The notes beneath the pieces are model-generated. The model ran no database searches, had not been told where the DNA came from, and saw only the letters and a program-made list of their open reading frames with translations. A stretch of DNA of 64,000 nt from Gautieria morchelliformis (Eukaryota > Basidiomycota > Agaricomycetes > Gomphales > Gomphaceae). Below, piece by piece: positions 2,786 through 45,349 of the stretch. The stretch lies in the NCBI GenBank assembly GCA_015179125.1, contig WHVA01000231.1, forward strand, positions 62,001 to 126,000, read 5' to 3'. Positions within the stretch are counted from its first letter, which is position 1, and every line of letters starts with the position of its first letter. The translations under genes were made by a program, and so were the position numbers.

Positions 2786-3838
2786 TGTCATGACGCGTTT
2801 ATTTCCCACACTCAGAAGCTCAGTTTTCCCATTTTCTCACCCCACCTTCGTGTTCGTTCCGATCACCATTGTCATGTTCGGCAACCAACTCTCGCTGTTC
2901 GCGCCAACTACCATAGCCGCACCGTCAAACGCACGATCGACGTCTTGGGACTGACTCGGCAGTCATCACTGGGCCTACCACCTCCTCAGTGTTCGCTCGG
3001 CTTTGCCCTCGACCTCGACCTCTCCTCCTCTATGTCACTTCTGTTCGGCCTTCCTTGCATTTCGCCGAACGGCTATTCGCCGCTCGCATCATTCGCCAGC
3101 AGGCACACCATCAAAAACGATAGATACCATTCACCCGGCGTGATGGTTCATCATTAACCCCATCGTCTTCTTAAATCCAACCCCATTGGGCATTAATATG
3201 GTCAAAGTATGTTCGCAGGACGTCCCTTCCAAAGATCGTGCGGGATCAACCCAGTAGACCAAGAGTCCGTGCAGGGTAGCATGTATGCGGGTCCCAAGAC
3301 ATGGTTTTGTCCATAAGTGCCTTCGCCACCTTTACCCTCCGTCGTTTCATGTTCTCCCTCTTCTCACATTCTATTGTATGTTTATTTCATCTATGTTGTA
3401 TCATGGCTGCGCACCCCTATCCAACCCTGACTTGTGACGGCCTCTTTCCTATTCGCTGATACCTTACGAGTATTCGATATAAGTAGTTTACATTCGCATG
3501 TATATTCCCCAGTTCAATTATCATACGTCGTGCATCTTGTGCAAACTTGACCTCATTGGGATCATCGTCTTAAGCCTTCTCTTGGAGATTTCTATCTTCG
3601 ACCAGCAAACGACTTAGGCATCACTGGTGAGTTCTCATACTTCATCTTCGTTACCTTAGCCTTCGAACCATTTTCTGTGCTGTTGGCGAAGGGCTCTGAA
3701 GGAGCACCTTCGCCAGCGAAGGGATTGTCGAGACTTAGACAGCCCTTCCGTGAGACCTTGCATGTTACATCGTCAAGAGCCACGGGCTATTTCGCTATGA
3801 CTGTAGATAGGGCGAGCCCCGTTTAGGCAAACCCTCTT
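2786..3838 (+). repeat. 5' LTR of element 1 (3' end deleted)
   Basis: Begins TGTCATGACGCG and matches 8748-9790 almost throughout. It stops at GCAAACCCTCTT, where the 3' LTR continues for another ~112 bp to TTGACA. A TATA-like GATATAAGTA lies at 3476-3485 and is conserved in every copy of this LTR family here, marking the likely U3 promoter. A splice-donor-like CTG/GTGAGT occurs near 3628. Confidence 0.85.
3592..3783 (-). other. conserved 63-codon antisense ORF inside the LTR
   Basis: The same ORF, with ATG and stop preserved, occurs at 3592-3783, 9539-9730 and 40544-40735 in separate LTRs. It encodes a hydrophilic peptide starting MALDDVTCKV with no recognisable domain. It could be chance openness of a young repeat. 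The solo LTR at 59497-60527 has lost the ATG. Confidence 0.3.
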
Positions 3839-3884
3839 TATAATTGAACTACCAGCTACAGTCAAAAGCATTACCCTATTTTTC

Positions 3885-6119
3885 ATGTCATCTACACAAC
3901 AAGAAAATCCTGTTGTCCATAGAACCCGCTCGACAGGTCCAGTTCCCACTCCAGCACCACTCCAGAGGCGAGCAGCTTCCGCCTCGTTCCCTTCGCAAAA
4001 CCCCACAGAGGACATCATCCCTTTCTCTCGCCTCGTCGCCATGTCTGCATCTCGGCCTACACCATACCGCCCGGTCCCCGAACACGCATCACCGCCTCTT
4101 TTCGATGTTCAACGGCAGCTGACTCCAGGCGAACAGCATTTCTCCCCTCAGCGACCACTTTCAGCCAGCACCCCCATACCTAGTCATAGGCCCGGCACCG
4201 ATTCTTTATGCCGCTTATTCACCCCTAATTCGCCCAGCGGTCACCCACAAAACCCTAGCACATTTCAAGAACCTTATCCTTCTAGGCTCCCTCGGATTGC
4301 CGGTGCTTCAGGACTCAGATTACAATCGGCCTTCGCACGACCCCACTTGCCACCTGCTTCGCCTAGTCACACTCCGAACCCTTTTCTCGACGTGCACTAT
4401 GCCCAGTGTCCTCTTAACCCCCGGCCTACATCCCTTCTCAATTCTAGGCATACCACCCCTGTACACGCAGAATCCCGGGCTCGCACACCCGCTTCGCACA
4501 ATTCTTCATCTCATTCACATCACTCACATGTTTCTTCGCACTCTTCGCAGGCTCTTCGCAGTCTTCACCAGTCGGTACATAGTGACCATACTTGAGTCAG
4601 CTCTCAAACTACCCCTCGCGAGGCACCTTTGGCGGACCAGGGACATCACGCTGACCCTGCGCCCGAGCAAAATCTTGGCTATCCCGTTACTGGCGTGCCC
4701 TATTATGACCCGAATGCTTTGCCTTTCGGCAGTGCCCCACCTCTATTCGCAGGACAACCTCACCCATTTTTGGTACAACCTCCCCTGTACCAACCCCCAG
4801 CCCAGATTCCTGCCCCACCTGGCGGGCCTGTGCCCCTTCCATTCGTGGGACAACCTCTCCCCTTCATGGGACAACCTCTCCCCTTCGCGGGACAACCTCC
4901 CCCGCAACAGCCTCCGGCACAGATTCCTGCCCTACTTGGCGGGCCTGCGCCTTTTCCATTCGCGGGACAGCCTCTCCCCTTCGCGGGATGACCTCCCCCG
5001 CAGCAACCTCTGGCACAGATTCCTGCCCCACCCGGCGGGCCTGCACCGCCTCCTCCACCACCTCTCGGGCCACCATTTCCCCATCTCGGAGTACCTCCGA
5101 TCGGGCCTCCTGGACCACCCGGGCCCCCCGGACCTCCTGGACCACCTCCACCCTTTGGTGGAGGGCCTTGGCCGCAACCAGGGTTCCCATGGAACCCCTA
5201 TTATCCCTTTCCTTTTGCCTACCCTCAGCCCGCCCCTGATGGTGATTCCGATGCTGCGAAACCCAACAAATTCACAGGGAAAGAACCTCACCTTCTCCGA
5301 ATGTTCATCGCTAGTTGTATTATGGTCTTCGACAACAAACCCCGAAAGTTCCAGCAGGAGCGACAGCGAGTCTCCTACGCGGCATCCTACCTCAGCGACA
5401 TTGCCTTGATCTGGTGGCAGCCTTTTCTCATTCAGTTCCCAGAACCTCCCATTCGGAGCAACTGGCTTATCTTTGTCGATGAACTTAATCGTCTTTTCGG
5501 TCAGGCCAACATCATCCAGGTGTCCGAGCGAGCTATTCGCAGGCTCAAAATGCTCGACACCCATCGTGTCAATCGCCACATGACCACATTCGCTGAGTTG
5601 TCCTCTTACGTCAAGTGGAACAATGCCGCCCTTTACGACACCTTCTACAACAGCCTCGCCGAGCGCATCAAAGACCACATGCTCTCCTACGAACGTCCCG
5701 AAAGCCTTGACGATCTTAAACGTCAGGCTCTTTGCATCGACAATCGCTACTGGGAGCGCCAAGGCGAAAAGCAGATTACAACCTCTATTCGTCCCCCTTC
5801 TTCTTCCGAACCTTCTGTTACACCACGTGCTAACGCTTGACCCAGACCCCCTGCCGCAGCCAAGCCCGACGAACAGAAAGATCTTTCCGGCATCCTCGAT
5901 GCTACCGGACGTCTTACTGAAGCTGAGAAAGAGCGATGAAAAACCAAAGGCCTTTGCCCTTATTGCGGCGAACCCCCCACACATCACGCAAAGGGGTGCC
6001 GCTTCCAAGAGTCTGCCCCAACCACTGGCAGAGCTATCTTCACTCTCGAAGGCGACCCCCAAGTTGCGATTCTCGAAGAGGTTCCCGAAGATGGCGAAAG
6101 CTCTCCCGCGGAATATTAA
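3885..6119 (+). pseudogene. Ty3-like gag of element 1, interrupted by stop codons
   Basis: A single frame runs from ATG 3885 to TAA 6119 (about 744 codons) with four in-frame TGA codons (4593, 4989, 5838, 5937). The N-terminus is S/P/H-rich. A proline-rich section with repeated GQPLPF units and a collagen-like GPPGPPGPPGPP run follows to about 5150. The capsid (retrotransposon gag family) starts around KPNKFTGKEPHLLRMF and includes YAASYLSDIALIWWQPF and a C-terminal FAELSSYVKWNNAALYDTFY. A zinc knuckle CPYCGEPPTHHAKGC lies near 5959. At least the later stops fit CGA or TGG changed to TGA. Expected role: RNA packaging and particle assembly. Confidence 0.75.
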
Positions 6120-7131
6120 AGCTCGCAACCCCTCTGTGGTGTTAGGAATGGCTCGTTTTAGCCCATCGAACAACGATCTTACCCACTTTGTATGAATCCC
6201 TGTATCTGTTTGCTTTGACTATCCTGCCCCCTTCACCTCTTCCCATCCATGTACACCTTCTCAGTCTCTGATTCTTTCCCCTTTCACCCTAGTTCTCAAA
6301 ATCCTCGCACAAATGTCTCTTTCTCCTCCTGCTTGTAAAAGCACACTAGCCACTACTTGTCTTGTTCGCCGAACACGTACATATCCGTCTCATTCAGAAC
6401 AAACTCTACTTCGATAGATAGTTTTTCCACATACCACTCTCCAGTTACCTTCGACACACATTCCGAACACTCGTCCCCGCTATCCTTGGGTTACGCCCCG
6501 AACACGGCGATTAGACAACTCTATTACACCTTGGATCTTCCTCCAGGTGTTGTTTCCTTCTTTGCCCTTTCCTATCCCGAATCTTCCTGTTTTCACACAG
6601 ACATTCGACATGGACAGCAAACTATTCGCTACCTCAGCAAAAGCCTATCAAGCATCACTCTACCGAGTCCTCCATATCGCTGCTTTATACTCGTCCCCGC
6701 CATCCTTGGGTTACGCCCCAAACACGGTGATTGGACCACTCTATCCCACCTCGGTCCTTCCATCAGGTGTCTCCTCCTTTCTTTGCCCTTTCGTATCCTG
6801 AATCTCCCTGTTTTCGCACAGACATTCACCGTGGACGGCAAACCCGGTACTAGTCCCAAAACACCCCAGCCCATTTTTACCCGTCGGGGCGACGTGTACC
6901 ATAAAGAGGGGGATGAGTGCTTAGGCACTATACAAACCCTCACAAACCCTACATTCGGAGAACTTGGCGATCACATCGCACAAACTTCGTGAACACCACT
7001 CCCAGTTGGATTCACTTATAGCCACTTTCGCGTACTCCCACGCGAAGTCCCCGAAGAGACCCAAGACTTAGCACACAATTTAGCACTCCAAGAGAAACAA
7101 CGCTCCTATGTTCACATAAAATTATCACAGA
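6120..7131 (+). other. decayed region between gag and the antisense gene, with a tandem duplication
   Basis: No intact frame. A segment starting CTCGTCCCCGC at 6471 is repeated diverged at 6691, a period of 220 bp. Each copy encodes a short PAILGLRP-HGDWTTL-like stretch weakly reminiscent of the end of a Ty3 aspartic protease, but I cannot confirm it. No RT motif is present on either strand. Confidence 0.4.
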
Positions 7132-8567
7132 CTATTTCATTAGCTTCCTAAGCATAGCCTGGACCCCCTCTAGTTCTAACACCTCTCCACTTAAATCGTT
7201 CAACTTCCGGGACACACTCCTCATCAGCTCCTCCGACCTCTCCACCAGGTCCTCTATTCTCTCCTCGCCGGCCAGCGTAGACGTTCGGGTGCCTTCGGAG
7301 GTATCTGGGAATCAGCCGAAGATGCGCGGAAGGAGGGCACAACAGGCTTACCAAGGACGCCCTTCGACGAGATCGAGGACGGACCTGTCATCGACCCTTT
7401 TTCCTTCGCCTTTCCCTTACTCTTCCCCTTCAACCTTCGCTCTTTCACCTCCGGCTCTCGACCATCCTTTTCGTCTTTCGCCACATACTCTAAAGGAGGG
7501 ACAAGGACTCCACATGAGTTCGGATGGTGTAGGAGGAATGGAAAAGGAGAAAATGTACCCTCTGCCGTGACACAGCCCTGGCGATCACGAATGCATCGCC
7601 CACACATCTTCCCTGCCTTGCCACTGCAGGTGTGACCATAGCGAAGGCATCGCCCACACTTCACAGGCCTCTTCAGTACCTTGTGCTACGAAGAAGCGCG
7701 CAGTCAGTGGGCAAATTACTTCGACAAAACACTACGCTGCTTACCCCGTTATAAATCAGCCAGCCGAGCAAATACGCATGCTCGGGGTAGCCATGCTTCA
7801 CTACCGACTGTGGAACCTTGTCTGATTCGGTAACCAGTGCATTCGCCCGCCCCTTGTGACGTTGGGCAGGAGTCGGCTCGACTGCGACAATCTCTGGCGA
7901 AGGACTCCGAGTGCGTTCCTTCTGGGCCTTCTTCGGTGTCCGGGTATTTTCGCCTTCGTCTTTGGACGACAGGAACATGGGTCGCCGCTTTGTGCGCACG
8001 GGCTGGACTGTGGCCGATTGTCCAGGTGATCCAGCAATAGGCTCAGCTGCGCGAGCGAAATCTTCGAGAGGACTTCAAGTCAGGAGGCCAGAAAACAAAC
8101 AAGTGTCACATACGTTCAGACTCTCGCATATTGTCCCCCTCAACTCGGGGCTCCTTCATAGCACCCCCCACTACCTCGGGTTCCTTCGATGGACCACGCG
8201 ACGCTATCGGTTCTGGCACCGTGTTCATCCCGGCATCAAGAAATTCTGGGCTAACTAAGAAACCCACACTCCCAAACCACTCTTTCGCTTCCTTCACCTC
8301 CCTCGCCAGGTCGTCCACTTCCGACGGACGTTCAAAGTCGGGATCCGCGATCGCTTCCACATGCAATGTGGTACGCAGCTCGGCCTGTGATGGGGTGGTC
8401 AGCGAAAATCCTTGATAAGGGAGCTCTCCTACCTGAAGCTCTTCAGCCTCGACAGCCCACTGCTCTACTTCTTCGCGCAAGGCTCCCCGAAGGTCAGGAC
8501 GAAACTTCAGCTTGACCCGCGTTCGCTCGATGAGCACAGAGAGAGAGGAGGACTCGTTAGGGGCCAT
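7132..8567 (-). CDS. antisense four-exon gene inside the retroelement: Zn2Cys6-cluster protein
   Basis: Exons on the minus strand: 8567-8114, 8061-7745, 7685-7352 and 7304-7132 (stop TAG). Introns of 52, 59 and 47 nt have GTATGT, GTAAGC and GTAAGC donors, AG acceptors and CTGAC or CTGAT branch-like sites. Phases are consistent and give 425 codons without a stop. Residues 1-151 are acidic and helical (MAPNESSS start). Residues ~267-295 carry C-x2-C-x6-C-x7-C-x2-C-x6-C (KCGRCLRYGHTCSG, then KMCGRCIRDRQGC), the exact spacing of the fungal Zn(II)2Cys6 DNA-binding cluster, with a K-rich stretch further on. The C-terminus (EERIEDLVERSEEL, then VQAMLRKLMK) looks like a coiled coil. The start lies 180 bp from the 3' LTR, so transcription would run antisense from that end. 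Family known: transcription regulators. Function here is inferred only. Confidence 0.72.
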
Positions 8568-8730
8568 GAGGAATCGAATAGTGAAATGAACCCGTCACCT
8601 CACGCCGCAACACCTTTTAAAGCACAGGGCTGAGCCGTGCACGGACCAAGCGGCGAGAGATCGTATCGGGAGCACTATTACATCTTCAGACTCGTCCCCC
8701 ATCCCAGAGCACTATGTCGTTGGACTCCAA

Positions 8731-8747
8731 AGCTAGGAGGGGGGTAC
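8731..8747 (+). promoter_or_regulatory. polypurine tract of element 1
   Basis: AGCTAGGAGGGGGGTAC lies immediately before the 3' LTR, the expected position and composition of the plus-strand primer. Confidence 0.7.
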
Positions 8748-9906
8748 TGTCATGACGCGTTTATTTCCCATACTCAGAAGCTCAGTTTTCCCATTTTCTC
8801 ACCCCACCTTCGTGTTCGTTCCGATCACCATTGTCATGTTCGGCAACCAACTCTCACTGTTCACGCCAACTACCATAGCTGCACCGTCAAACACACGATC
8901 GACGTCTTGGGACTGACTCGGCAGTCATCACTGGGCCTACCACCTCCTCAGTGTTCGCTCGGCTTCGCCCTCGACCTCGACCTCTCCTCCTCTATGTCAC
9001 TTCTGTTCGCCCTTCCTTGCATTTCGCCGCTCGCATCATTCGCCAGCAGGCACACCATCAAAAACGATCGATACCATTCACCCGGCGTGATGGTTCATCA
9101 TTAACCCCATCGTCTTCTTAAATCCAACCCCATTGGGCATTCGTATGGTCAAAGTATGTTCGCAGGATGTCCCTTCCATAGATCGTGCAGGATCAACCCA
9201 GTAGACCAAGAGTCCGTGCAGGGTAGCATGTATGCGGGTCCCAAGACATGGTTTTGTCCATAAGTGCCTTCGCCACCTTTACCCTCCATCGTTTCATGTT
9301 CTCCCTCTTCTCACATTCTATTGTATGTTTATTTCATCTATGTTGTATCATGGCTGCGCACCCCTATCCAACCCTGACTTGTGACGGCCTCTTTCCTATT
9401 CGCTGATACCTTATGAGTATTCAATATAAGTAGTTTACATTCGCATGTATATTCCCCAGTTCAATTATCATACATCGTGCATCTTGTGCAAACTTGACCT
9501 CACTGTGATCATCGTCTTAAGCCTTCTCTTGGAGATTTCTATCTTCGACCAGCAAACGACTTAGGCATCACTGGTGAGTTCTCAAACTTCATCTTCGTTA
9601 CCTTAGCCTTCGAACCATTTTCTGTGCTGTTGGCGAAGGGCTCTGAAGGAGCACCTTCGCCAGCAAAGGGATTGTCGAGACTTAGACAGCCCTTCCGTGA
9701 GACCTTGCACGTTACATCGTCAAGAGCCACGGGCTATTTCGCTACGACTGTAGATAGGGCGAGCCCTGTTTAGGCAAACCCTCTTACCTTGTGAACATTC
9801 ATTGGTTCACCTATTCGCCGAACGGCATACTTATTCACACAAGTTATTTGGGCATTCGCTGTGTTCACTAATACACGATATTAACGCTTGAAAACCGATC
9901 TTGACA
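8748..9906 (+). repeat. 3' LTR of element 1 (complete, 1159 bp)
   Basis: Starts TGTCATGACGCG and ends CCGATCTTGACA, giving short TGTCA/TGACA inverted ends. The boundaries are confirmed by the solo LTR at 59497-60527, which has a perfect 5-bp duplication. The TATA-like ATATAAGTA is at about 9424-9432. It carries the antisense 63-codon ORF at 9539-9730. Confidence 0.88.
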
Positions 9907-10338
9907 TGTAGGCCTGACACATTTGGGATGTAGATCTTGCCCCAGAACTGCAGTAGCCCATTGCTTTCCGACCACTTGGCACTCCATACTGAGCTAGAAT
10001 GCCCCTTCCAAAGTTCCTCTGCAGCCTTCACCACTGACTCCTCATTCTCCAGGTGTTGGAAACCCTGGTTAATATCCCAGAGAATGTCAGAACGCACTGA
10101 GACAGGGCATCGAGTTCCACCCGACTGGACTCAGGCTCTTGGAGCAGTAGGTGATCGCATGCCACTTTCAGCTTCTGGAGACTGCTGGGATAGGACAGCC
10201 CCAGTCACTGTATCAGAGGAGTCAGCTTCAACTTGAAAAGGTGGTTGTTTGGGAACACAAGGATTGGGGCCAAGGTGACCAGCTGCTTGAGCTTGTCGAA
10301 GGCAGCTTGCTCGGTGTCAGCCCATACCCATGGGATAT
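9907..10338 (-). pseudogene. Ty3-type pol relic, RNase H to pre-integrase (part 1 of the split element)
   Basis: Read on the minus strand, 10338 downward encodes FPWVWADTEQAAFDKLKQL, then VTLAPILVFP, EADSSDTVTGAVLSQQ (RT connection and start of RNase H). A deletion follows and jumps to EELWKGHSSS, then WSESNGLLQFWGKIYIPNV, the segment before the HHCC finger. It continues at 2785-2571 on the far side of element 1. It is cut on its 5' side by the LTR at 10339. Several frameshifts and a deletion make it dead. Confidence 0.75.
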
Positions 10339-10768: not shown

Positions 10769-13236
10769 ATGGCTGATGCTACCCTGGACCAAGAGTCCAG
10801 GATGATAGAGGACGGAGAGATCGTAGATCTCACCGCCCTCGTCCCCTCAGTAGAGGATGAGGAAAACCCCGACCACGTCTCATCGAGCGTGGCCGAGGAA
10901 GAGATGACACCGGGCAACGAACGGGCGCCCCCCCCCCCATTCCTCTCTGCCCAGAGACAAAGGAAAGGGCAGAGAAATCTCGCCGTCGTCAGACCGTAGA
11001 GCAACAACGTCGAGGCGAGCACAAAGCCATGACTCAAACCGACGCTCACGAAGTAGAGCGATGACGATCGTCCCTGAAGGGGGACGACGGCAAAAAAGAC
11101 GAGCCCCAGACGATGGTCAGGACTCGGAATACTCGAGCTCCAGTCACAAGAGCTCAAGGGCTCACGCCATTGACCACGAGACGGCAGAGGCTCTGAACAA
11201 ACAGGTGCAGGCTGCGCTGCACCGAAGCACACTGACGTGCCACAAGCACGATCAGCTGGCATCGCAGCTTGACAATGCCGCCGCCGCCCTAATGGCAATC
11301 GGCAAGGAACTCCACCAGGCGGAGGAGGTCAGGCTGCAAGACGCAGCCACGCTGGAGGATGTCCAGAAAGCCCTCCGCCCACGAGGGGAACACGACACAA
11401 CTTGTCCGAGCTCGTGACAGTCCGCAGCCAACGAACGCAGTCGCGACGTGGAAGACCCACGCCGAAAGGAGCGGGACAAGCAGCGAATGCCACCGCCAGC
11501 CGTCCCGGTCGAACAGGACATAAGGTTTGGGAACGAACCTCAAGAGCAACCGGCTGCCCCAGCGGACAGCTGTAAGACGATCCGACAGATCGTTAGGGAG
11601 CAGGTCGCCTCAGAGCCTGACTCTGAAATGACAACCGAGAGCTTAGAGCTCGAAGTCACACACTGGCAGCGTAAAGAAGCTGCAGCCGCATGCTGCCACA
11701 CACGGGCACTCGAGCTACTAGTGAAGAACGCCGAAGAGACAGTGGCCCACAGCCACACCGCTCAGCTGCCCGACGAGCAGCTCACACAAGCCGTACAAGA
11801 CGCACGGCAGGTGCGCGCAGCCTACAACAGCAGGCTGCGGATCCGCAACGCGGGACTGACCGGGGACACCAGGCACAAAACGCCCCCGGAACCGAGAGCA
11901 CAAAATGCTCCCGATCCCGAGCCCGATCCGGGCCTGGGGCCCATCAGGGCATATAACAGCCTGCCCCACGTGGCGTCACAACCACACGAGCGATCCATGG
12001 CCCCAACGGAAGGCCAGGGAATCCCTGACCAGGCCGACGTCGTACCAATGGAGCCGTACGATGGGATCACACGGATGATCCGCGTGGCATTAGCAGACGC
12101 TGCGGACACAGACCCGGAGAAGTCTGTGCTAGCGAAAGCCGGCATAAAATTGGCTCATCCAGAGCCATATGCCGGGGGATCTGACCTCGAAGAGTTTGAA
12201 ATCTTCGTGGCAGCCATCCTACGATGGCTGAAAATGAATTGCCTCCTAGGGCCAACCAGCATCGATATGCAGGTCGGCTATGTGGGCACTTGCCTCACCG
12301 GCGAAGCCCAGGAGTGGTTCCTTCGAAACGTTGAACACTTCGATCGCCAGGTCTGCAGCTGGACGCTGGAAACCGTGATGCAAGGCCTTCAAAAAAGGTT
12401 CCTGCACACACTGACGTACCATCACGCATCGAATAAGTTTGACGCGGTCATGCAGGGCATGAAAACCGTTCAGGAGATGCTGAACGAGCTCACGAAATAC
12501 GCGGCACGTATGATACAGCCGCCAGATGATTACATGTTCCGGAGACAGTTCATATCGGCGCTGCGTGAAACGCTGCGCAACGAGGTCCTCAAAAAGGGCT
12601 ATAATGCCGAGAGCAGCTCAATAGAGCAACTCTTCGAAATGGCCCGGATGATCGAGGAGGCATCCCGATACAACATGGGGATGCGCCGCGCAGAGAGCGC
12701 AGCAGCAACGGCAAGCACTGCCCGGCTCACAGGGAGCAAGCCGTTGACACAAACGGGCCTGACCAGGCCCAGCCTGTTCTCAAGAAGCAGAACAGGACAA
12801 TGGCTACCGCCATCACGCCCAGCGCAAGCTGGATGCCCGCCTGAAGCTAAACAGCCTCAAGCGTCAGGGTCGTCCCCACGACCTGCCCCACCAATGAAAA
12901 CGTTGGGCCGGCCTAACGATAGGCCCAGCGGCAGCCAAAGCAACACCACGTGCTTTTAATGCGGCCAACCTGGCCACAAGAAGGCAGAGTGCCCCCGGCT
13001 TAGGTCCAGTATAAGGACAGCAGCCGTGAAGCACGACGATGAGGCCGAGGATCTGGAGATGGATCTCGGTCAAAATTCTCTTCAACAGATTGATGAAGAG
13101 GGGGAGGGTGATTCCCAACCCAACGATCTGGAGATGGATCTCGGTCAAAATTCTCTTCAACAGATTGATGAAGAGGGGGAGGGTGATTCCCAACCCAACG
13201 ACACTCCGGACAACGGAGATGCGCCCACTGAAGAGT
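10769..13236 (+). pseudogene. Ty3-type gag of element 2, broken
   Basis: Starts MADATLDQES. The frame shifts in a C homopolymer near 10927-10938, then continues as SRSRAMTIVPEGGRR. It has TGA at 11415 and, from 11448, a 503-codon stretch. That stretch holds a capsid (LAHPEPYAGGSDLEEFEIF, CLTGEAQEWFLRNVEHF, FRRQFISALRETLRNEVLKKG). A zinc knuckle CGQPGHKKAEC at 12960-12992 has its first pair broken by TAA at 12957-12959 (C-F-stop-C). A 75-bp acidic repeat (DLEMDLGQNSLQQIDEEGEG) is duplicated at 13050-13199. The gene is truncated by the LTR at 13238; no pol of this element remains. Confidence 0.75.
13050..13199 (+). repeat. 75-bp tandem duplication in gag
   Basis: Two virtually identical 75-bp copies in frame (25 codons each), adding an acidic DEEGEG segment to the gag C-terminus. 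Confidence 0.9.
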
Positions 13237-13237
13237 G

Positions 13238-13553
13238 TGTCAGGGTTCACGCATTTCCTTCCACAAGTTTCTATTTCCTTCCATGAGTTTCCGTTACCTT
13301 CCGTCAGTTTCCATAACCTTCCGTCACATTCTGTCACATGTCACATTCTGTCACCTTCCGTAACCTTCTACAAGTTTCCGTCTCCCCTATTATGTAAGCC
13401 TTGCCAGCGCTATAAGACTGTAGCCTGTGTGGTGGCGTTTCCTCAGCTTGATCTCTGAGGATACCCACTACACAGTTGGTCATTGTCCTAGTATCGGCTC
13501 TTATCTCCTTGAGTATCTTTGGTTGTGGCTTCGTCATTAGTGTTGCCCTCACA
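13238..13553 (+). repeat. 5' LTR of element 3
   Basis: 316 bp with tandem CCTTCCGTCA/CATTCTGTCA modules in the U3 part and a TATA box CTATAAGAC near 13409. Ends TGCCCTCACA. Confidence 0.88.
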
Positions 13554-13613
13554 GAAGATCAAGCTCATAGGACGACCCCACACACTTTTCTTAACCAGCC
13601 TTCATCTCAGCCT

Positions 13614-14720
13614 ATGGCAGACCAACTCCCAGACGCATACTGGGACTCCCTGGGTGACCATGGGCCATTTCTTCGAGGCCTCCTTTCCAGCCAAGCACAG
13701 CAGCTGCAGCAACTTCAACTGCAGAATCAGGAACTGCACAGTCAGATTGTTAACGTTCACGACCACTTAGCCAATGCTGCCGCCAACGCTGCTGTTGCTG
13801 CTGCTCAAGCCCTTGCGCCCTCAGTACCTCACAGTGTCCCTCCATCTACTCGCTCTATCAAAGCAGTGGAACCGGAGAAGTTCAATGGAGACCGTGCAGA
13901 GACTGAAGGGTTTATCAGGTCTATCAGATTGTCCATCGCTGTCCAGCCGGCATCCTTCCCAGATGAGCGCACAAAGATCCTATATGCTCTTTCCTTCATG
14001 ACAGGAGGCTCTGCGGAGATATGGGCACACAACGAGACACAGGCTGTCATTGATGGCACCTCCTCTATATCCACTCTGGAGGGGTTCATTAAACGTGTGG
14101 AGGAGGCCTTTGGTGACCCAGATCGTGCCAGAACGGCTCGCACTAAACTGCATGACCTTAGGATGGCGTCAGGAATGTCGGCAGATGAATACACGGCTCA
14201 ATTTGAGATCCTGGCAGGCAGGACAGGCTTTAATGATGAGGCACTCGAGGATGCCTATGCTCGTGGCCTTCCAGCAGGTATCCTTGATAAGATCCACGCC
14301 CAGCCCTTTCTTCCATCCAACCTCAAAGCCTGGAAGGAAGCAGCCTGTCAGATTGACCGCAATCATCGCCGTCTGTTAGAGGTCAGGAAGGCACAGACAC
14401 CTCATGTCCCTAATCGCCCTCCTCCTGCCCGTCCTGTTCACACTCCTGCTACGGCTCCTGTTGTCACAGCACCACCCAGTAATGCGACACCTATGGACAT
14501 TGACTCATCCCGCCGCCGCACCGAAACACGGACCTGCTACAACTGTAAGAGACCTGGTCACATTTCACCAGACTGTCCTGAACCTCGCAAGCCACGAATC
14601 CGCGCAAACCTCACGGAGGCGGACATTGCAGCAATTGTCTCTAAATCTGTGGCAGCGGCGATGGAGGAACCCAAACAGAAGGTGGAAGCCCCTGTCCAAG
14701 ATGAAGGAAAGGGTTTTTAG
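13614..14720 (+). CDS. gag of element 3 (intact, 368 aa)
   Basis: The ATG at 13614 (MADQLPDAYWDSL) is the first methionine of the gag domain; the frame is open further upstream into the LTR. An N-terminal Q-rich coiled coil (QAQQLQQLQLQNQELHSQ) precedes the capsid (VEPEKFNGDRAETEGFIRSI, MTGGSAEIWAHNE, FGDPDRARTARTKLHDLRM, YARGLPAGILDKI). The zinc knuckle is CYNCKRPGHISPDC (C-x2-C-x4-H-x4-C). Ends in TAG at 14718, directly after a G GGT TTT heptamer. Role: capsid and RNA binding of the retrotransposon particle. Confidence 0.85.
   Translation: MADQLPDAYWDSLGDHGPFLRGLLSSQAQQLQQLQLQNQELHSQIVNVHDHLANAAANAAVAAAQALAPSVPHSVPPSTRSIKAVEPEKFNGDRAETEGFIRSIRLSIAVQPASFPDERTKILYALSFMTGGSAEIWAHNETQAVIDGTSSISTLEGFIKRVEEAFGDPDRARTARTKLHDLRMASGMSADEYTAQFEILAGRTGFNDEALEDAYARGLPAGILDKIHAQPFLPSNLKAWKEAACQIDRNHRRLLEVRKAQTPHVPNRPPPARPVHTPATAPVVTAPPSNATPMDIDSSRRRTETRTCYNCKRPGHISPDCPEPRKPRIRANLTEADIAAIVSKSVAAAMEEPKQKVEAPVQDEGKGF
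14711..14717 (+). promoter_or_regulatory. -1 ribosomal frameshift heptamer (G GGT TTT)
   Basis: In the gag frame the codons are AAG GGT TTT TAG. G GGT TTT fits the X XXY YYZ slippery rule and sits one codon before the stop. Slipping back one base gives LGQSAVKD and runs directly into the pol frame (its first Met is at 14732). Confidence 0.6.
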
Positions 14721-14731
14721 GCCAGTCAGCG

Positions 14732-17700
14732 GTGAAAGACATGCCCCGCTCGACGAATCGGTTTTCAGTTCTCAAAACATGTACAATAGGGATCACAGGC
14801 GATATGATGCATCCTTCTCCTATCCCTGATCGAACTGAAACCAAACCAGCCATGCCAAAAACCCAACCCATCGCTCCAGTTGCTAATGCAAACCTTCCAG
14901 TCCCTCTATATGTCCGTACTGCTGACCTTCGCCGATGCACCAAAGTACCTCTCAAGGTCCACTCCGTTGACACAGGGCATCCACTTGCAATTGACTCCCT
15001 CCTTGACAGTGGTGCTACAGGGATGTTCATCGATGTGGAGTTTGTAAGGGAACACAGACTTCGGACCCGTCCCCTACCCCGTGCCATCCCCGTCTACAAT
15101 ATTGATGGGACCCCAAATGAGGCTGGCTCAATCAAGGAAGAAGTTGACCTCATTTGCACCTTTGGGGATCATACGGAACGTGCCACATTCTCCATCACGA
15201 GCCTTGGACGACTTGCCATCATTCTTGGTCACACATGGCTTGTTGAACACAACCCAGAAGTTGACTGGCGTACAGGAGATGTGAAGATGACACACTGTCC
15301 CAAGTCATGTGGGGGCAGACCTGTTGTCAGAGGGCCCACAGTCGAAACTGTTCCAGAAGAGAGTGTAGATCAAGAGGAGGTTCCCATACAGCACACCCGC
15401 TCCCTACTTGAGGAAGGAGACAGGACCTTTGTCATCTTTGTGAATGAGAGTCCTGAAATGATTGGCGCAGGCTGGACTGTCTCCCAACAGCTTGCTGAAC
15501 GGGCCAGCAAGTCTGCACCAGTCAGATCCTTCGAGGACCTTGTCCCCAAACCATACCAGGAGTTCAAGGATGTGTTTTCTAAGGAGTCATTTGACCAACT
15601 GCCTCCTCGAAAGCCCTGGGACCATGCAATTGAGCTCACTCCAGGTGCACAACCCTTCAGCACAAAGGTTTACCCAATGTCACCGGTTGAGCAAAGGGAA
15701 CTGGATAACTTCCTTGAGGAGAACCTGAAGAGTCATCGTATCCGTCCTTCCAAGTCACCTATGGCATCTCCAGTCTTCTTTGTGAAGAAAAAGGACGGCA
15801 GTCTTAGATTTGTGCAAGACTACCGGAAGCTCAATGATATAACAATCAAGAATGCCTATCCTTTGCCCCTTGTTCCAGACATCATGAATAAGATTGCTGC
15901 TGGAAGGGCTAAATACTTCACAAAGCTTGACATTCGCTGGGGATATAATAATGTACGCATAAAAGAGGGAGATGAGTGGAAGGCAGCCTTTCGGACAAAT
16001 AGGGGCCTGTATGAACCTCTAGTCATGTTCTTTGGACTCACGAACAGCCCAGCAACCTTCCAGACGATGATGAATGACATCTTCAAGAGTCTCATCGATG
16101 AAGGGGTTGTGGTGGTGTTCATGGATGACATTCTCATCTTCACAGAGTCGCTTGAAGAACATCGTAGGATTGTACGACGTGTCCTTGAAATCCTCCGGGC
16201 CAACAGCCTGTACCTCAAACCTGAAAAATGCCTATTTGAGCAACTAGAGGTGGAGTATCTCGGCCTCATCCTCTCTCAAGGACAGGTTGCCATGGACCCA
16301 GTCAAGGTTGCAGGGGTGCGGGACTGGCCAATACCACGTAACGTCACTGAAGTCAAATCATTCCTTGGTTTCATCAACTTCTACCGTAGATTTGTGGAAG
16401 ACTTCTCACACATTGCAAAGCCCCTCAACCAGTTGACAAAACAGGATGCCCAACGGTCTTGGGATCCAAATGGCCCAGAGCAAGCGTCCTTTGACAAGCT
16501 CAAACTCCTCATCACCTCAACACCGATCCTTGTCCTCCCTGATCAAGACAAACATTTCCGTCTTGAAACAGATGCCTCAGCCTATGCCACAGGAGCAGTA
16601 CTGTCCCAGCTATGTGATGATGGCAAATGGCGGCCTGTGGGGTTTGTCTCCAAAAGCCTCAATGATGCTGAACGCAACTATGCCATCCATGACAAGGAGC
16701 TTCTTTCTGTGATTCGGGGATTAGAGGAATGGCGCCACATCTTAGAGGGAACAAAGCACAAGATTGAGATTCTCAATGACCATCAGAATCTCACCTACTT
16801 CCGCACTGCACAAAACCTGAACCGTCGTCAAGCACGCTGGTCACTCTACCTCTCTCGCTTTGATTTTGAGCTGATCCATCGTCCTGGTCGTCATTCAGCC
16901 AAGCCTGATGCACTCTCACGACGCGTGGATCATAAGCGGGGGGAGGAAGACAACCAAAATCAAGTCTTACTTACCCCTGACTTGTTCCACATCAAGGCGA
17001 ATCCTCCAGAGGCTGGCGCGCAGTTAGTCCCAGGTGAAGGTGATGCTTTCCTCAATCGAGTAAGGAACTGTGTAGACCGGGATGAAAAGGTTGTCAAGGC
17101 TCTCAAAGAACTGGGCTCCTCTGGAAATTTGCGAGGAGAAGAGTGGTCTGAACAGGATGGGCTTGTCCTCTATCACAACAAAGTGTACGTGCCGCTTGAT
17201 GCAAAACTACGACATGACATAGTGAAAGCGCACCATGACATACCTCTCACCGGTCACCCTGGTCGTTGGAGAACCACTGAACTAGTTGCTCGGAGTTACT
17301 GGTGGCCTGGGATGGGACGTTACATTGCAAAATACGTGAAGGCCTGTGACCTGTGCAACCGGACAAAAACCTTCCCTGCTTCTCCCATTGGCAAGCTTCT
17401 ACCAAACCGTATCCCAGACCGTAGATGGCAGGTTATGTCTGTTGACTTGATCGTAGAACTGCCTACCAGTCATGGCTATGATGCTCTCCTTGTTGTCGTC
17501 GATCGCCTCTCAAAGCGTGCACATGTCATTCCCACCACTTCAGATGTAACTTCGGTGGGAGTTGCCCGACTCTTCCGTGATCATGTTTGGAAACTTCATG
17601 GGCTCCCTGAAGAAATCATCAGTGATCGAGGCACACAGTTCATCTCCCAGTTCATGCGTGAACTGAACAAACTTCTTGGTGTCAAAGTCGCTGCCTCTAC

Positions 17701-18316
17701 TGCTTATCACCCCCAAACTGATGGACAGACTGAAAGGGTTAATCAGGAGATTGAGCAATACCTTCGACTATTCGTCAACCAGCGTCAGGATGATTGGTTT
17801 GAATGGATATCCTTGGCGAGTTTGCCTATAACAACCGAATCCATGCCTCAACCCAGACTACACCCTTCATGTTGGACAGTGGCCAACATCCAAGGCTGGG
17901 ACTGGAACCAGTTCTGGAAACTCGACTCGAGGCCCTGGATGAGTTCACAACACGGATGGAAGCGGCCACAAGAGAAGCTCGTTCGGCCCTGTCCAAGGCA
18001 GCAGAGGACATGGCACGCTTCTATGAGTGCACCATAAAGCAGCCCCAGTTTATAAGCTTGGTGACAAGGTCTGGCTCAATGCACAAAACATCACAACCAC
18101 TCGCCCAATGAAGAAGCTAGACCACAAGTGGCTAGGCCCCTACACTTTAATAAGGTGGTCTCACGAAATGCCTATGGTCTAAATCTTCCTACATCCTTTG
18201 GTCGCACACATCCAGTGTTCTCTGTCGTCCTGCTTCGGCCATATGAAGATGACCCAATCCTTGAACGTCATGCCCCTCCACCACCCCCCCCTGTCATACG
18301 GGATGGAGCCGAATAA
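14732..18316 (+). pseudogene. pol of element 3: protease, RT, RNase H, integrase (late frameshifts)
   Basis: 1101 codons are open from 14732 to 18037. Protease LLDSGATGMFID is near residue 91. RT has SPVFFVKKKDGSLRFVQDYR and a FMDD catalytic box near residue 464. The connection and RNase H contain LETDASAYATGAVLSQ. Integrase has its HHCC finger (HHDIPLTGHPGRW to CDLCNRTKTF), then VDLIVELP, ISDRGTQF and TDGQTERVNQEIE, so the DDE triad is intact. A frameshift near 17812 moves the frame to LGEFAYNNRIHASTQTTPF, and another near 18035 to KLGDKVWLNAQNI. TAA at 18314 then interrupts the link to the chromodomain. Coding is otherwise well preserved. Confidence 0.85.
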
Positions 18317-18480
18317 TATGAAGTTGAAAGGATTCTAGACAGCAGGATGTTCCGTGGAAGGTTGGAGTATCTCGTGCGCTGGAAGGGCTATGGAGCTGCC
18401 AACGATCTCTGGCTACCAGCGAAAGATGTCTCTGGGGCAAAGCGACTCGTTAAAGAATTTCACCGGCAGAACCCAGAGGC
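18317..18480 (+). pseudogene. chromodomain at the C-terminus of element 3 integrase
   Basis: After the TAA at 18314 the same frame reads YEVERILDSRMFRGRLEYLV, RWKGYGAANDLWLPAKDV, then RLVKEFHRQNPEAP. This is a chromodomain with its aromatic residues and RWKGY. Known role in chromoviruses: directing integration toward particular chromatin. It is separated from integrase by one codon change. Confidence 0.75.
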
Positions 18481-18733
18481 ACCTCACGTATCTCAGCAGC
18501 CACATATATGTCCCTCCCCTTCCAGAGATTTCAGAACTTCACAGAACCTTCCAGGCAAACTCTCTTCGACTGGACAGCAGGCAGGGCTTCTACTTATGAT
18601 GTCAAGGGTCCAGAACCCCAAAGATAAGCGATATCGGCCTCCGCCTAACCAATTCATTCCGATAAGCTATATATCCCCTCTCCACCTGTGACCGCTCACT
18701 TCCACTGCATCGACCCCACCACATCCATCAACC

Positions 18734-19288
18734 ATGTCCTCGCCTGCCATTGAGCTTGTTGCCCTCCCCAGCTTCACCCAAAACCTCTCTGACCTGCCAA
18801 ACATGTCACGTGTCGATCCCACTCTCCTGCACTTCTCCGGCTTCTCGTCATCCAGAGCAGCCAGTGAAGCCAAGCTACAAAGGATGCTTGACTGCCGTGA
18901 TCTCGATGTCGCATGGTCTTCAAAGTGGTCCGTCAGCTCTGAGGACCTCACATCAGCGGAGAGTCAGGCGCCCACTCGCCCTGCACTCGCATTCCTCAGA
19001 CCCCGACACAGACGAGAGAACACGTACTACGTCGGCGACCCTGTCTTCCTCAATGATGGAACCCCCCCTTGTGGAACCCCCTACACTTTCGAAAGCTGGG
19101 TGGGGCGGCGTTTCCGTAACATGGCAGGAAAGCGAATACGTCGAGCAAGGTTCCGAGGGCCGCACCTGCCCATGGACCCCAATCCCCCTGAGCTCATCAT
19201 TGACCTGCGTTACCAGGAAGGGAAGGGCCAGGAGAGATGGTGGTCCCGCCTGTGGCATACTTGGAAACGATGTCTCAGTGGATGTTGA
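18734..19288 (+). CDS. possible third ORF of element 3 (184 aa, unknown)
   Basis: Open from ATG 18734 to TGA 19288, between the chromodomain and the polypurine tract. The protein starts MSSPAIELVALPSFTQ, has a central YYVGDPVFLNDG, and a basic-aromatic C-terminal half (FESWVGRRFRNMAGKRIRRARF, then RWWSRLWHTWKRC). No family recognised. A second ORF of similar length overlaps it in another frame (18750-19295). I favour this one because its composition is less S/P-skewed, but both could be accidental. Confidence 0.35.
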   Translation: MSSPAIELVALPSFTQNLSDLPNMSRVDPTLLHFSGFSSSRAASEAKLQRMLDCRDLDVAWSSKWSVSSEDLTSAESQAPTRPALAFLRPRHRRENTYYVGDPVFLNDGTPPCGTPYTFESWVGRRFRNMAGKRIRRARFRGPHLPMDPNPPELIIDLRYQEGKGQERWWSRLWHTWKRCLSGC

Positions 19289-19330
19289 GGGCTAGGTGGC
19301 AGCTGTGCTTGTCGGGACGACAAGCATTGA

Positions 19331-19341
19331 GAGGGGGGTGA
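19331..19341 (+). promoter_or_regulatory. polypurine tract of element 3
   Basis: GAGGGGGGTGA sits immediately 5' of the 3' LTR. Confidence 0.6.
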
Positions 19342-19734
19342 TGTCAGGGTTCACGCATTTCCTTCCACAAGTTTCTATTTCCTTCCATGAGTTTCCGTTA
19401 CCTTCCGTCAGTTTCCATAACCTTCCGTCACATTCTGTCACCTTCTGTCACACTCCGTCACATGTCACATTCCGTCACCTTCCGTAACCTTCTACAAGTT
19501 TCCGTCTCCCCTATTATGTAAGCCTTGCCAGCGCTATAAGACTGTCCCGTGTGGTGGCGTTTCCTCAGCTTGATCTCTGAGGATACCCACTACACAGGCA
19601 AGTCCCCATGTATCTATCGTTGGTAGAGTTATAAACTGAGGATACCCACTACACAGTTGGTCATTGTCCTAGTATCGGCTCTTATCTCCTTGAGTATCTT
19701 TGGTTGTGGCTTCGTCATTAGTGTTGCCCTCACA
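19342..19734 (+). repeat. 3' LTR of element 3
   Basis: 393 bp. Differs from the 5' LTR by an additional TGTCAC module and by a ~60-bp duplication that repeats CTGAGGATACCC around 19578-19655. Same termini. Its last ~80 bp are open in frame with the downstream kinase exon. Confidence 0.85.
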
Positions 19735-20584
19735 GGTGCAGATGTTGCAGTATTTCAAATCAACCCAATTGCCTCGCTATTTATAATCCAAGAGGACAAG
19801 AATAATAACATGCTTCGGCAGGGATTGAAAGCCCTTGTCCTGGCTGACTATTTTATGAAAAGCTTTTATCAGCGTGCCAAGCAGCTTAATTTTGACGGCC
19901 TTCCCAGTAAGTATAGAAGTATCAAACTGCGGCAAATATAGTTCACTAATGATTCCTATCAGGAAGGCGAGTCAATGCCAGTGGTGCCTTCCTTGGCATA
20001 ATAAATGCAGAAAAGATTCTTCCTCGTCTAGTCACAGGGCCGGATAATCGCACACTCACACACACACTATTCCTCTCGACACCTCTTCTTTTAGGTGACT
20101 TTCACAAATACTCAGGTTCATTACAGACAGGTCAAAGTGGTAAAACTGGGTTCGGAGCAGTGGTGGATACATTCGCACACCACGTAGTTGTTGATAGCAT
20201 GAATTCGGTCTTCCTATGCGACCTTCAAGGTAAGTATAGCACACGAAGGCCTTTTATAAGACTAAATCATGGTCTAACTAGGGTTCATAACCAACAATGA
20301 ATTCATTCTCTTTGATCCTCAAGCCAGCATGTTAGTGTTCACCATTTACGTTGATTACTATGTCACACTGAACATTTGTCTACAGAACCGCAGACACAAC
20401 TATGAAGACCACATTATACGATCTATCACCTGCCGATGCAATCCAAAGGTTTCTCAGAGAGCATGTGTGTAATGCCTTCTGTAAGGGTCTACAGCTGCCG
20501 TCTACCAACCCGACACAATACGCACCTAAAAGTATATTACCCAATAAACTGTGTAATGGCCCATTGAGACACGGTATGTTATAA
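19735..20584 (+). pseudogene. alpha-kinase (MHCK/eEF2K-type) gene, C-terminal part only
   Basis: Exons 19735-19906, 19963-20229, 20282-20330 and 20386-20584 join in phase. Introns of 56, 52 and 55 nt start GTAAGT, GTAAGT and GTTAGT. Encoded motifs are FYQRAKQLNFDGLP, NASGAFLGIINAEKILPRL, DFHKYSG, FAHHVVV, FLCDLQG and FILFDPQA, then LSPADAIQRFLREHVCNAFCKGLQL. The CDLQG, FDPQ and F-x3-H-x-CN-x2-C set is the end of the alpha-kinase fold, including the zinc-binding CN..C. The N-lobe and any start codon are missing because the LTR of element 3 abuts the first visible exon. Family role: Ser/Thr protein kinase. Not functional as it stands. Confidence 0.7.
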
Positions 20585-33807: not shown

Positions 33808-36120
33808 GAACACTCATCAGTACTCTTCGTTTCTTGCCTAATATCCAATACGCTATTGCTGGAGACCACATTCTCATTATCGACAACCTCTCCGTACGCC
33901 TTGGGTTCCCTTGGTGTGACTGGAGACCTTCTGTGGCAGCACATCGAAGTAGCGAGAATGGGGTTGACCCATCTCCAAAACATCAAGGCGTCAAGAAATT
34001 CCTGAGGTAGCAGCTCCAGCTATGGAATTACCACAACAACAATGCCCACCTTGCTCGTGCCAAAGATAAGAAAGGCAACGAGAGGGGCTATGACAGTTGG
34101 AGCTCGTGAAGACGAGTATGGTCACTATAGCATGATGACAGCCAAACTGACTTCCAGCTTGCAGCATGTTGGCCCACACAGGGATGAAAGAGGCTATGAC
34201 ATTTGGAGCTCGTGAGTACTAGAACGGTCACTATAGCATGATGGGGGCCACAACGCACTTGGGGATTCAAGGATGCCCTCCTCAGAGATAACTCTGTGCG
34301 TTAGATTAATGCCACCAGTAAGGACATAGATTCTCTGAGCGTTAAGCATGGTTGCCATATAGGCTCTTTCACGGTGGCAGGTCCGTATGTAGCCGAGCGG
34401 ATATCCATGCAAATGATCAGACACAGGACACAGAGACCGCATATGGGGAAAGGGAACATACACAGCGACCACAATGCGATACGCGGAAAAGATGACAACA
34501 CGAAAGACAACAGAGAGTGGTACTCCAAGTGCCTTCCCTCCATTCCCTCCTGTCCGTTGAAAAAATCGCCAATGACGGTACAGAATGTGGATTATGCATC
34601 CTTTGAAACAGATCAGGGAAGCAACACAGTGAGGGTCAACATACCATCAAATATGGGAGTGACAATCAAGATGGAGACCAATACGGTGTACTGAGAGATA
34701 AGGCTGTGGAGGTCATGGTCGTTTGAAAAGCCTAGATGAAGGGATGGAAAGTGCTCACAAGGTGTTATTATTAAATAACATACAATAAAAACTTTTCTGG
34801 GTGAAAACTAATCTTCCAACTCGAAACTGAAAATAGATTCAAAATCAGAGGAGGCTTAGCCGTAGAAGCAATGAGGTCTGACGATGGGTGGGCTAGTAAC
34901 ACTGAGAGCCGGCAACGAGAACGCCAGTAGAGACATGTAAGGCGCTGCTAGAAGCTGTTGTAGTGAAGAAAGCTTTCATAAATACCAATGATGGGTGACG
35001 ACAAATGAGATCTACCGTAGCTCTCGTCCATCGAATTTGTCTGGGACTACGAGGCCCATGAATAGCAGCTCTGAAATCAAACCACAGCTATGTATATCTG
35101 AATTGTGTACTTGTCATGATGATAGAAGAGCACAGCTACCTGAACAATCAATGCACACATGGCTGTATCTGTCATCGCCTGGGCTCCGGAGACAAGTGCT
35201 GCCTGGTTCAAGCACTCCTGATCGGAGTGAATGAATGGAAGTGTGGTCTCAAAATATTGACTTGCTGGTCGCAAACGGTATAGTCTGCCGTATCCCGTAG
35301 TGAAGTGATGAGACCCAAAATACAACAAGAATTTGACTCACCCGACAGAGAAAGTTACGCTGGAAAAGATCCACGTGAAGCAAAAGTTAAGAAATGTAAG
35401 GTCCCGTTGCGCCGTTTTTGAAAAGATAGAGAAAAGGAGGAGGATGGCAAGTCCAATGTGACCCCCGATTATCTGCAGCGCACGGTATATGGCCTGCTGT
35501 TGCCTCAGCTCTGCAAAAAATCTGGACTAAGCAGATGAAGAGGGCAGCAAGATGAGTGTCATACGTTCATCCGATCGATTCAGACTATCCAGGAGAGCCG
35601 AGGCATTCGGTGTGAGCAGGAGTTGCAAGTTATCAGCACTGTGTCCATCAAAATGGCACAAGGCTATTTGGACTAGCACAGCAAAATGTCAGATGCTTTT
35701 GCAGTGGTAAAGCCAACTGACAAGGTTACGGTTTATTTGATACTGTGTGAAAGCCTGCCCGATGTCAGATTCAGGAACCCCGCACAAGCCCAGAATCGCA
35801 ATACCCAGGATTCCATTGTTTGAGCAGCAGCCACGGACTAGTGTACATGGTTGCTCATGCTGTCTTATACTAGCAGGCGGACACTTCGCCAGTGTTAGCT
35901 CCTATTTTCAGTTGAAATTCCATCGTGACTGAACAGTTCACCTGTATCTCCATTGTCCCATTGGGAAGAGGGGCCGATAATGGAAGGGTGGCAAGAGGGG
36001 CCGGCAATGTCATGTCAAATGCATTGACTCCGGAACGCAGGCATAAGTTCTCCACGCGAGATCCAAAATATTATGCTTACTAGCAGAGATGAAGAGTAGA
36101 CTCAGAGCAATCCCAAGCAT
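33780..36120 (-). pseudogene. 7-TM receptor-like gene, copy 1
   Basis: Minus strand from ATG 36120: signal peptide MLGIALSLLFISA, a short exon MTLPAPLATLPLSAPLPNGTMEIQ, then AELRQQQAIYRALQIIGGHI, LAILLLFSIFSKTAQRD, TFLNFCFTWIFSSVTFSV (TM helices), CLNQAALVSGAQAMTDTAMC, and a cytosolic tail FWRWVNPILATSMCC...VLDIRQETKSTDEC. Exons are separated by ~50-nt introns. The layout resembles Agaricomycete GPCR-like membrane proteins (HIGxPxLLL, FxNFCxTWI, CLxQAAL). The last residues differ from the other copies because the TIR element at 32199-33807 supplies the C-terminus (SGTADSGL instead of LPL or FPL). I cannot reconstruct all exons, so other damage is likely. Confidence 0.5.
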
Positions 36121-36417
36121 TTTCGCGAGCACAGAAAATTTCCAAGTAATAGAATCAGTGATTGACTCCATCCGCCTCAACTGTTCGGTTATAAGAGTGG
36201 GGGTCCACGAACCAAAATTACCCAGCGGGCGGCCAGGGCATGTGAGGCTGAGGAGGAACTGAGGGCCTACATAGTGTGGACTCTGTGGTCGCATCATGAT
36301 ATATACCAACCCCTCCACCTCAGTCCCATCGTGTGCAGCGGTGCCACCTCCCTGGATACGGGTGATTATCACTGGGGTTTATTCCTGGCTGGTGTCGTAT
36401 TGTCCTGTCGACATTAG
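36121..36417 (-). promoter_or_regulatory. upstream region of 7-TM copy 1
   Basis: Conserved in all copies, including TATATACCAACC near 36300 (TTGGTATATA on the gene strand), a plausible TATA box. Confidence 0.4.
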
Positions 36418-36995: not shown

Positions 36996-37000
36996 GTTAG

Positions 37001-37814: not shown

Positions 37815-37819
37815 AAGGC

Positions 37820-38034
37820 TATTGTGAGCAACTTCTATGAGCAGCTTAGAACCTGGATGGCGTCAGAAGAAAGTCTGTTATTAAGAAGCCCAACTGTAAA
37901 TACCTGGACGGCGTCAGAAGAAAGTCTGAAGTGCCGTCTTACACGAGTTGGGTAGCTATACTAGTTGCTTAGTAATATTGTCCATAAAGAGAAGGTGGTG
38001 CCAACTCGGCGACTGGTCAATCGGATTCACAACA
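37820..38034 (-). repeat. 3' LTR of the minus-strand copia element
   Basis: 215 bp, nearly identical to 43841-44055. Confidence 0.9.
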
Positions 38035-45290: not shown

Positions 45291-45349
45291 ATTGGAGTGC
45301 GGCTAATTGACAACGTAAGCCAGGGTTGCAATGAAAGGCTACGGACAGC

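Follow-up and report, generated by a model that had tools for sequence, protein, structure and literature searches.

An intron-rich antisense gene with a six-cysteine cluster in a pol-less LTR element of the fungus Gautieria morchelliformis

Comparison of DNA sequences supports the existence of a real antisense gene of the spliced type, borne by an LTR element and subject to selection, in Gautieria morchelliformis, a truffle-like basidiomycete of the order Gomphales. We analysed a stretch of 64,000 nucleotides (hereafter the window), which sits on a contig of 168,175 bp, and searched the 122-Mb genome for its relatives. The element occupies window positions 2786-9906, with gag on the forward strand, no pol, and the antisense gene running from 8567 down to 7132. 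The gene bears on the role of antisense accessory genes of LTR elements in plants and fungi, and a single genome here offers codon-level selection, a metal-cluster-like exon that is the most constrained of the gene, five introns, and both pol-bearing and pol-less carriers.

Architecture of the element

The 5' LTR (2786-3838, forward strand) starts with TG, its boundary being set by comparison with copies L009 and L019, and the 3' LTR (8748-9906, forward strand) has TGTCA...TGACA ends, as judged from the sequence and from copy comparison. By self-comparison the two LTRs are 96.2% identical across their shared part; the 5' LTR is without the final ~121 bp that the 3' LTR has. A putative target-site duplication is formed by CGTAG in the 5' flank (2781-2785) and TGTAG in the 3' flank (9907-9911), with one mismatch. 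The polypurine tract AGCTAGGAGGGGGGTAC (8731-8747, forward strand) abuts the 3' LTR, and this sequence or a close variant lies directly before the LTR start in 24 of the 30 copies that we aligned. No tRNA was found in a tRNA scan.

The gag gene (3885-6119, forward strand) contains a match to Retrotrans_gag, PF03732, within 5277-5837 and, by eye, a zinc knuckle near its end. With an LTR pair, a polypurine tract and gag but no pol, the element has the make-up of a non-autonomous gag-only LTR element. Non-autonomous elements of the TR-GAG type comprise two LTRs and gag without pol; the G. morchelliformis element resembles them in these respects and in its many copies, and differs in having an antisense accessory gene besides gag.

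Downstream of gag, relics of pol lie on the forward strand, collinear with the pol of relatives. The protease region is represented by a partly duplicated relic at 6473-6804, with 71-77% DNA identity to positions 1356-1572 of the pol-bearing copy L056, and the RNase H/integrase junction by a relic at 6875-6945 that is 83% identical to L055 and 76% to L056; within it, 6876-6927 is 85-88% identical to L045 and L041. A relic of the pol 3' end at 7039-7116 adjoins the stop codon of the antisense gene and is 73% identical to L055 (E 1e-6), with weaker matches to L045 (71%, E 0.006) and L056 (70%, E 0.08). A weaker pol-like stretch occurs at 6123-6269.

The antisense ATG at 8567 is placed 180 bp from the 3' LTR, which begins at 8748, as had been noted from the window itself. 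The distance from the ATG to the LTR start is 173-182 bp in 24 of 30 copies, so the antisense gene and the element travel together; among the other six copies, a match at +13 in L036 is spurious and five have no LTR match.

Structure of the antisense gene

The alignment of 30 copies comprises the window copy and 29 of the 41 others found, 20 of them with long and nine with short flanks; 12 of at least 42 copies lie outside it. The prediction from the window comprised a minus-strand start codon at 8567, three introns of the GT-AG type and 425 open codons up to a stop at 7132, and all are present. The four-exon gene built upon them survives as an open reading but not as a gene structure: we rejected it because the alignment reveals two further introns with conserved splice sites inside the supposed exons 1 and 3. 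Together with an NCBI gene model, the alignment yields a corrected gene of six exons and five introns that encodes 386 amino acids.

On the minus strand, the alignment places exon 1, with the ATG, at 8433-8567, exon 2 at 8114-8384, exon 3 at 7745-8061 and exon 4, which holds the six-cysteine (Cys6) cluster, at 7559-7685. Exon 5 (7352-7489), drawn from the alignment and the NCBI models, encodes a basic, lysine-rich stretch, and exon 6 (7132-7304), also from the alignment, encodes C-terminal helices predicted from the model of protein P0002 and ends with the stop at 7132. The splice dinucleotides of all five introns are conserved in 28-30 of the 30 copies. Intron 1 (8385-8432, GTAGGA..CAG) has a GT donor in 28 copies and an AG acceptor in all 30; for intron 2 (8062-8113) the corresponding counts are 30 for the donor and 29 for the acceptor. 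Intron 3 (7686-7744) is GT..AG in every copy. The donor of intron 4 (7490-7558) is GT in 29 copies and GC in the other, that of intron 5 (7305-7351), the third intron of the original prediction, is GT in 29, and both have AG acceptors in all 30.

In the window copy the two additional introns measure 48 bp and 69 bp, both of them frame-neutral, which is why they escaped the four-exon model; the length of the first (8432-8385) is not a multiple of three in 18 of 30 copies. The NCBI model P0002 (386 aa) equals, by eye, the six-exon form of copy L011 and has introns 1 and 4 removed. A second NCBI model, P0001 (copy L009), has intron 4 removed and keeps intron 1 in frame. The intron 4 donor of the window copy, GTACAT, is weak, and retention of the intron there is therefore possible.

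The gene had also been called intact. This holds for the window and five other copies (L009, L011, L027, L034 and L035), whose reading frames run uninterrupted from the ATG to a stop at codon 375 or later, all splice sites being in place; the remaining 24 of the 30 are not open. Copies L012 (contig C448) and L016 (C479) lie at near-zero tree distance in the gene, yet carry different indels, and are possibly haplotype or assembly duplicates. Contigs C301 and C880 hold another pair of copies with equal score.

Selection on the antisense gene and on gag

Over all pairs of the 30 copies, the first, second and third codon positions had diverged by 0.113, 0.103 and 0.217, respectively, and introns by 0.191. 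The pooled pN/pS of the antisense gene was 0.34 in the true frame, and 0.95, 1.03, 1.10, 0.44 and 1.27 in the control frames; the value of 0.44 belongs to an opposite-strand frame, presumably the register in which third positions coincide. Four of the five control frames thus give 0.95-1.27 where the true frame gives 0.34; with splice sites and cysteines conserved as well, the pattern goes beyond chance. By region, pN/pS was 0.41 for residues 1-105, 0.49 for 106-185, 0.33 for 186-250, 0.14 for 251-292, 0.30 for 293-340 and 0.21 for the C-terminal part, making the Cys6 exon (251-292) the most constrained part of the gene. Each of the 15 pairwise comparisons of the six open copies gave a dN/dS within 0.21-0.39. 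These values, like those pooled over all pairs, are descriptive because pairs share history. The Ka/Ks comparison among copies that the original prediction had proposed as a check thus returns values well below 1.

For gag, the part at 4992-6119 gave a pN/pS of 0.28 (13 copies). The window gag, which does not overlap the antisense gene, has four premature in-frame stops, at 4593, 4989, 5838 and 5937, and premature stops in both genes are mostly TGA. The observation that gag holds stops and the antisense gene none is correct for the window, at four versus zero; set against the remaining stop-prone codons (four stops to 62 such codons in gag, none to 21 in the antisense gene), the difference is not significant (Fisher p = 0.57). 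The different selection on the two genes that had been read from it lacks support, because the examined part of gag is also under purifying selection and both genes gather stops. We consequently rejected the contrast between a dead gag and a live antisense gene, constraint on the two being similar.

The Cys6 cluster and the predicted protein

The cluster, with the spacing C-x2-C-x6-C-x7-C-x2-C-x6-C exactly as claimed, spans residues 251-279 (7572-7658, minus strand). Its cysteines are found in 179 of 180 cells of the 30-copy alignment, and the window protein has no cysteine beyond these six. The Zn2Cys6 spacing C-x2-C-x6-C-x5-12-C-x2-C-x6-8-C occurs in the window protein and in 31 of 55 relatives as annotated. 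The PROSITE-type Zn2Cys6 pattern has basic residues after the second cysteine; these are present in none of the 55 relatives, nor in the window protein. The Zn2Cys6 profile PF00172 gave no match to the whole protein at E<=10, and against exon 4 alone it scored 14.1 bits (E 0.05), below the Pfam cut-off of 21 and ranking behind an unrelated PSI_integrin match (E 0.014). What stands of the zinc-cluster regulator first proposed is its cysteine spacing. Membership of the Zn2Cys6 family was rejected on the sub-threshold exon score and the lack of a whole-protein match, and the protein further departs from the family in its missing basic residues and in the mid-protein position of its cluster.

The full-length model of P0002 has a mean pLDDT of 52, and only its helices are usable. 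They are predicted at residues 24-58 and 66-88 in the N-terminal part and at 342-368 and 375-385 in the C-terminal part of this relative, on either side of the Cys6 exon and the lysine-rich stretch and in keeping with the helical C-terminus originally predicted. Confidence by block is pLDDT 78, 81 and 69 across residues 341-370, falling to 50-52 beyond. In the Cys6 part of the model, residues 252-257 and 270-274 form short helices (pLDDT about 55). A separate model of the 42-residue Cys6 exon (pLDDT 67.5) is without helices and without a structural match.

Pfam, PDB and fold searches returned no accepted match for the antisense protein: PDB sequence searches and NCBIfam gave weak, unrelated matches, and Foldseek and VIA-align, run on poor models, gave none. 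NCBI lists 55 related gene models, and every protein relative listed in our searches (41, 55 and 36) comes from G. morchelliformis, in whose genome the exons have 174 matches. No homologue from outside this species was found in these searches, two of which scored the best 7994 candidates; the method depends on 5-mers in common, and distant relatives may have escaped it.

Pol-bearing relatives and the origin of the gene

The homologue search that the original prediction had proposed as a check found antisense relatives in other copies, next to an LTR of the same family. Five gag copies with no antisense gene listed nearby (L038-L042) were examined, and three of them, L038, L039 and L041, hold pieces of the gene. 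In L041, whose gag is 81% identical in protein, pol lies in the expected place and aligns with another gypsy pol over residues 190-1067, though spread over more than one reading frame. The antisense gene of L041 is represented by a C-terminal piece, which a LINE-like insertion has apparently cut. A weak piece of pol follows the LTR of L038, and no pol match was found in the examined stretches of L039, L040 and L042.

With the RT/RNase H piece of L041 as query, the genome yielded 142 matches, ten of which were examined around the pol end. A homologous N-terminal half of the antisense gene lies between the pol end and the LTR side in nine of these ten pol-bearing copies, eight of the nine with a match to the last ~770 bp of the window LTR at 87-92% identity; L046 has no antisense gene within 5 kb and no LTR beyond a short piece. 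The short antisense forms, in L045 and L047-L054, lack the Cys6 pattern in all nine cases, which suggests either loss of the Cys6 exon or an ancestral short form. The cluster would then be dispensable in, or absent from, this short-form pol-bearing clade.

Two further copies, L055 and L056, combine a pol that matches the chromodomain end with the long antisense gene, its Cys6 exon and an LTR. Their five introns occupy the same positions as in the window gene; one of the six cysteines is changed in each copy, and in L056 the donor of intron 3 reads AT instead of GT. In L057, a further copy, the Cys6 exon is exact and a trace of the pol end is also seen. The pol of L045 carries a chromodomain (PF00385), rve and H2C2 (integrase), and L047-L056 match its chromodomain end. 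The C-terminal chromodomain of integrase that marks chromoviruses is thus found in the relatives, the window copy having pol relics only. In aligned pieces, the DNA of the pol-bearing relatives is about 72-81% identical. Because these relatives carry the gene with the same intron pattern, it is ancestral in the chromovirus lineage, and the window element is, on these alignments, a pol-deleted derivative of a chromodomain-bearing Ty3/gypsy lineage.

The loss of pol is shared. Every one of the 20 long-flank copies has the RNase H/integrase-junction relic, 19 have that of the pol end, and none of the 20 has a match to close-family RT/RNase H or integrase (E<=1e-5, 7.4 kb each). One of them, L023, matches the pol of another gypsy element, which we take as a nested insertion; L010 and L013 have no gag end in the examined stretch, so that their pol-less state is read from that stretch alone. 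Relics common to 19-20 of 20 copies without pol argue that the pol-less form itself was amplified, with the gene under selection.

The low pN/pS could instead be inherited from pol-bearing ancestors in which alone the gene mattered, the gene being a passenger in the pol-less derivative. That 24 of 30 copies are not open and that nine pol-bearing copies have the short form only would fit such a history; however, the six open copies reach a dS of 0.59 with dN/dS still at 0.21-0.39, and at least four of them (the window, L009, L011 and L027) have the common relics of pol loss, so that much of their divergence postdates it. We regard inherited constraint as unlikely, and return to selection within the pol-less lineage.

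Discussion

Our favoured reading, which we hold to be probable though far from secure, is that the element is a pol-less chromovirus derivative with an ancestral antisense accessory gene whose product helps its own element family. Reverse transcription normally rids retroelements of their introns, but not of antisense ones, as these are unspliced in genomic RNA, the logic of antisense-intron reporters. The introns of the G. morchelliformis gene would in this way survive each reverse-transcription cycle. The five conserved introns point to a separate minus-strand mRNA, which may be transcribed from a promoter in the 180-bp leader or in the 3' LTR; across the 150 bp preceding the ATG, divergence is at the level of introns (0.179), and no conserved promoter is visible there. 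The spliced mRNA would encode a protein that is probably nuclear, metal-binding and self-associating and that binds nucleic acid. Such a protein may aid its own family through LTR transcription, import of cDNA or particles, or avoidance of silencing, with pol supplied in trans by chromodomain relatives that have the last ~770 bp of the LTR in common. Help of this kind, with pol from elsewhere, would account for gag and the antisense gene being kept while pol was lost, and their joint retention suggests that the product benefits the element itself.

The nuclear, nucleic-acid-binding role is our best guess, drawn from the antisense accessory proteins of plants; a regulatory role is plausible. 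A more specific proposal, which we put forward tentatively and think unlikely to hold as it stands, is that an antisense Cys6 DNA-binding regulator, its introns hidden from genomic RNA, gets the pol-less element preferentially copied by the machinery of its chromodomain relatives. If true, it would be a fungal counterpart of retroviral antisense regulators.

Alternatively, the protein may counter methylation or heterochromatin on the element rather than act on transcription or import. The TGA-rich stops of both genes are what would be expected if CGA codons were deaminated at their CpG, and the flanks CGTAG and TGTAG differ in a manner consistent with the same process, so the copies may be methylated; the integrase chromodomain of a pol-bearing relative, moreover, suggests chromatin targeting. 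No homology to any known suppressor was found, however, and we consider a purely anti-silencing protein quite unlikely. Nor do we expect the antisense RNA to be the active product, controlling the element through dsRNA or siRNA with coding capacity secondary. Such RNA would complement the 3' portion of genomic RNA, and dsRNA roles of antisense transcripts of LTR elements are proposed in PMC7264820, but its introns would take out part of that complementarity, and codon-position bias, splice-site conservation and near-invariant cysteines call for a protein, making this account very improbable. Recent capture of a host zinc-cluster gene, which the original prediction had raised and which the gene-like exon structure, the Cys6 spacing and the gene capture known for plant LTR elements (PMC7264820) might recommend, we reject as the least probable account, given that all 55 listed protein relatives and the 174 exon matches are from G. 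morchelliformis and that pol-bearing relatives at about 72-81% DNA identity already have the gene and its intron pattern; a very old capture is possible.

The antisense gene has parallels in both plants and fungi. Zhao et al. 2011 reportedly described the fungal one, brtn. It is an antisense extra gene in Boty-like elements of Botrytis cinerea (PMC7264820, PMC8365987, PMC4227169 and PMC5987419), and Boty itself encodes gag and a pol with a CHROMO domain (PMC4227169). On these descriptions, brtn resembles the present gene as an antisense extra gene in a chromodomain-bearing fungal gag-pol element; it differs in its ascomycete host, as against a basidiomycete here.

In plants, the genes known as aORF-3R include gene23 of maize Grande, those of rice RIRE2 and ORF4/TRP28 of Silene Retand (PMC7264820 and PMC11963269). 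As portrayed there, most copies of their families carry them between pol and the 3' LTR in antisense orientation, the position seen in the pol-bearing relatives here and, between pol relics and the 3' LTR, in the window. They are also conserved about as well as the proteins of the element itself, to which the pN/pS of 0.34 for the antisense gene and 0.28 for gag correspond, and their products are suspected to be nuclear or DNA-binding, as may be the case here by analogy. Some carriers of the Retand gene are likewise non-autonomous. The plant proteins are different ones, the Cys6 cluster and five introns belonging to the G. morchelliformis gene, and Retand is described as a non-chromovirus, whereas the relatives here have an integrase chromodomain.

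No Cys6 or zinc-cluster antisense gene of an LTR element appears in the titles or abstract openings among the literature matches listed. The claim that no Zn2Cys6 example had been described is thus uncontradicted among those matches, though the antisense brtn of fungal Boty is known. Antisense accessory genes in plant LTR elements and in fungal Boty are already known; what appears to be new is an antisense accessory gene that is intron-rich, Cys6-bearing, of a basidiomycete, and selected, as its codons suggest, in a pol-less lineage.

Other elements in the window

Two stretches at 39992-40794 and 59646-60527 are LTRs of the same family, 83-88% identical to those of the element, and are perhaps solo LTRs. 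Another gypsy element, with a chromodomain-like pol end by eye, lies at 13235-19735. It has short terminal repeats at 13235-13475 and 19338-19597 (91%), a further identical 100-bp stretch at 13455 and 19636, and, between pol and the 3' repeat, a sense-strand ORF of 184 aa (18734-19288) that may be a sense accessory ORF. Nested or duplicated elements are suggested by several long direct repeats at 33809-38034 and 43840-56008, which reach 1.8 kb and are 85-99% identical. Lastly, a 75-bp tandem duplication (97%) occupies 13045-13194, right after the zinc-knuckle gag-like ORF of another element.
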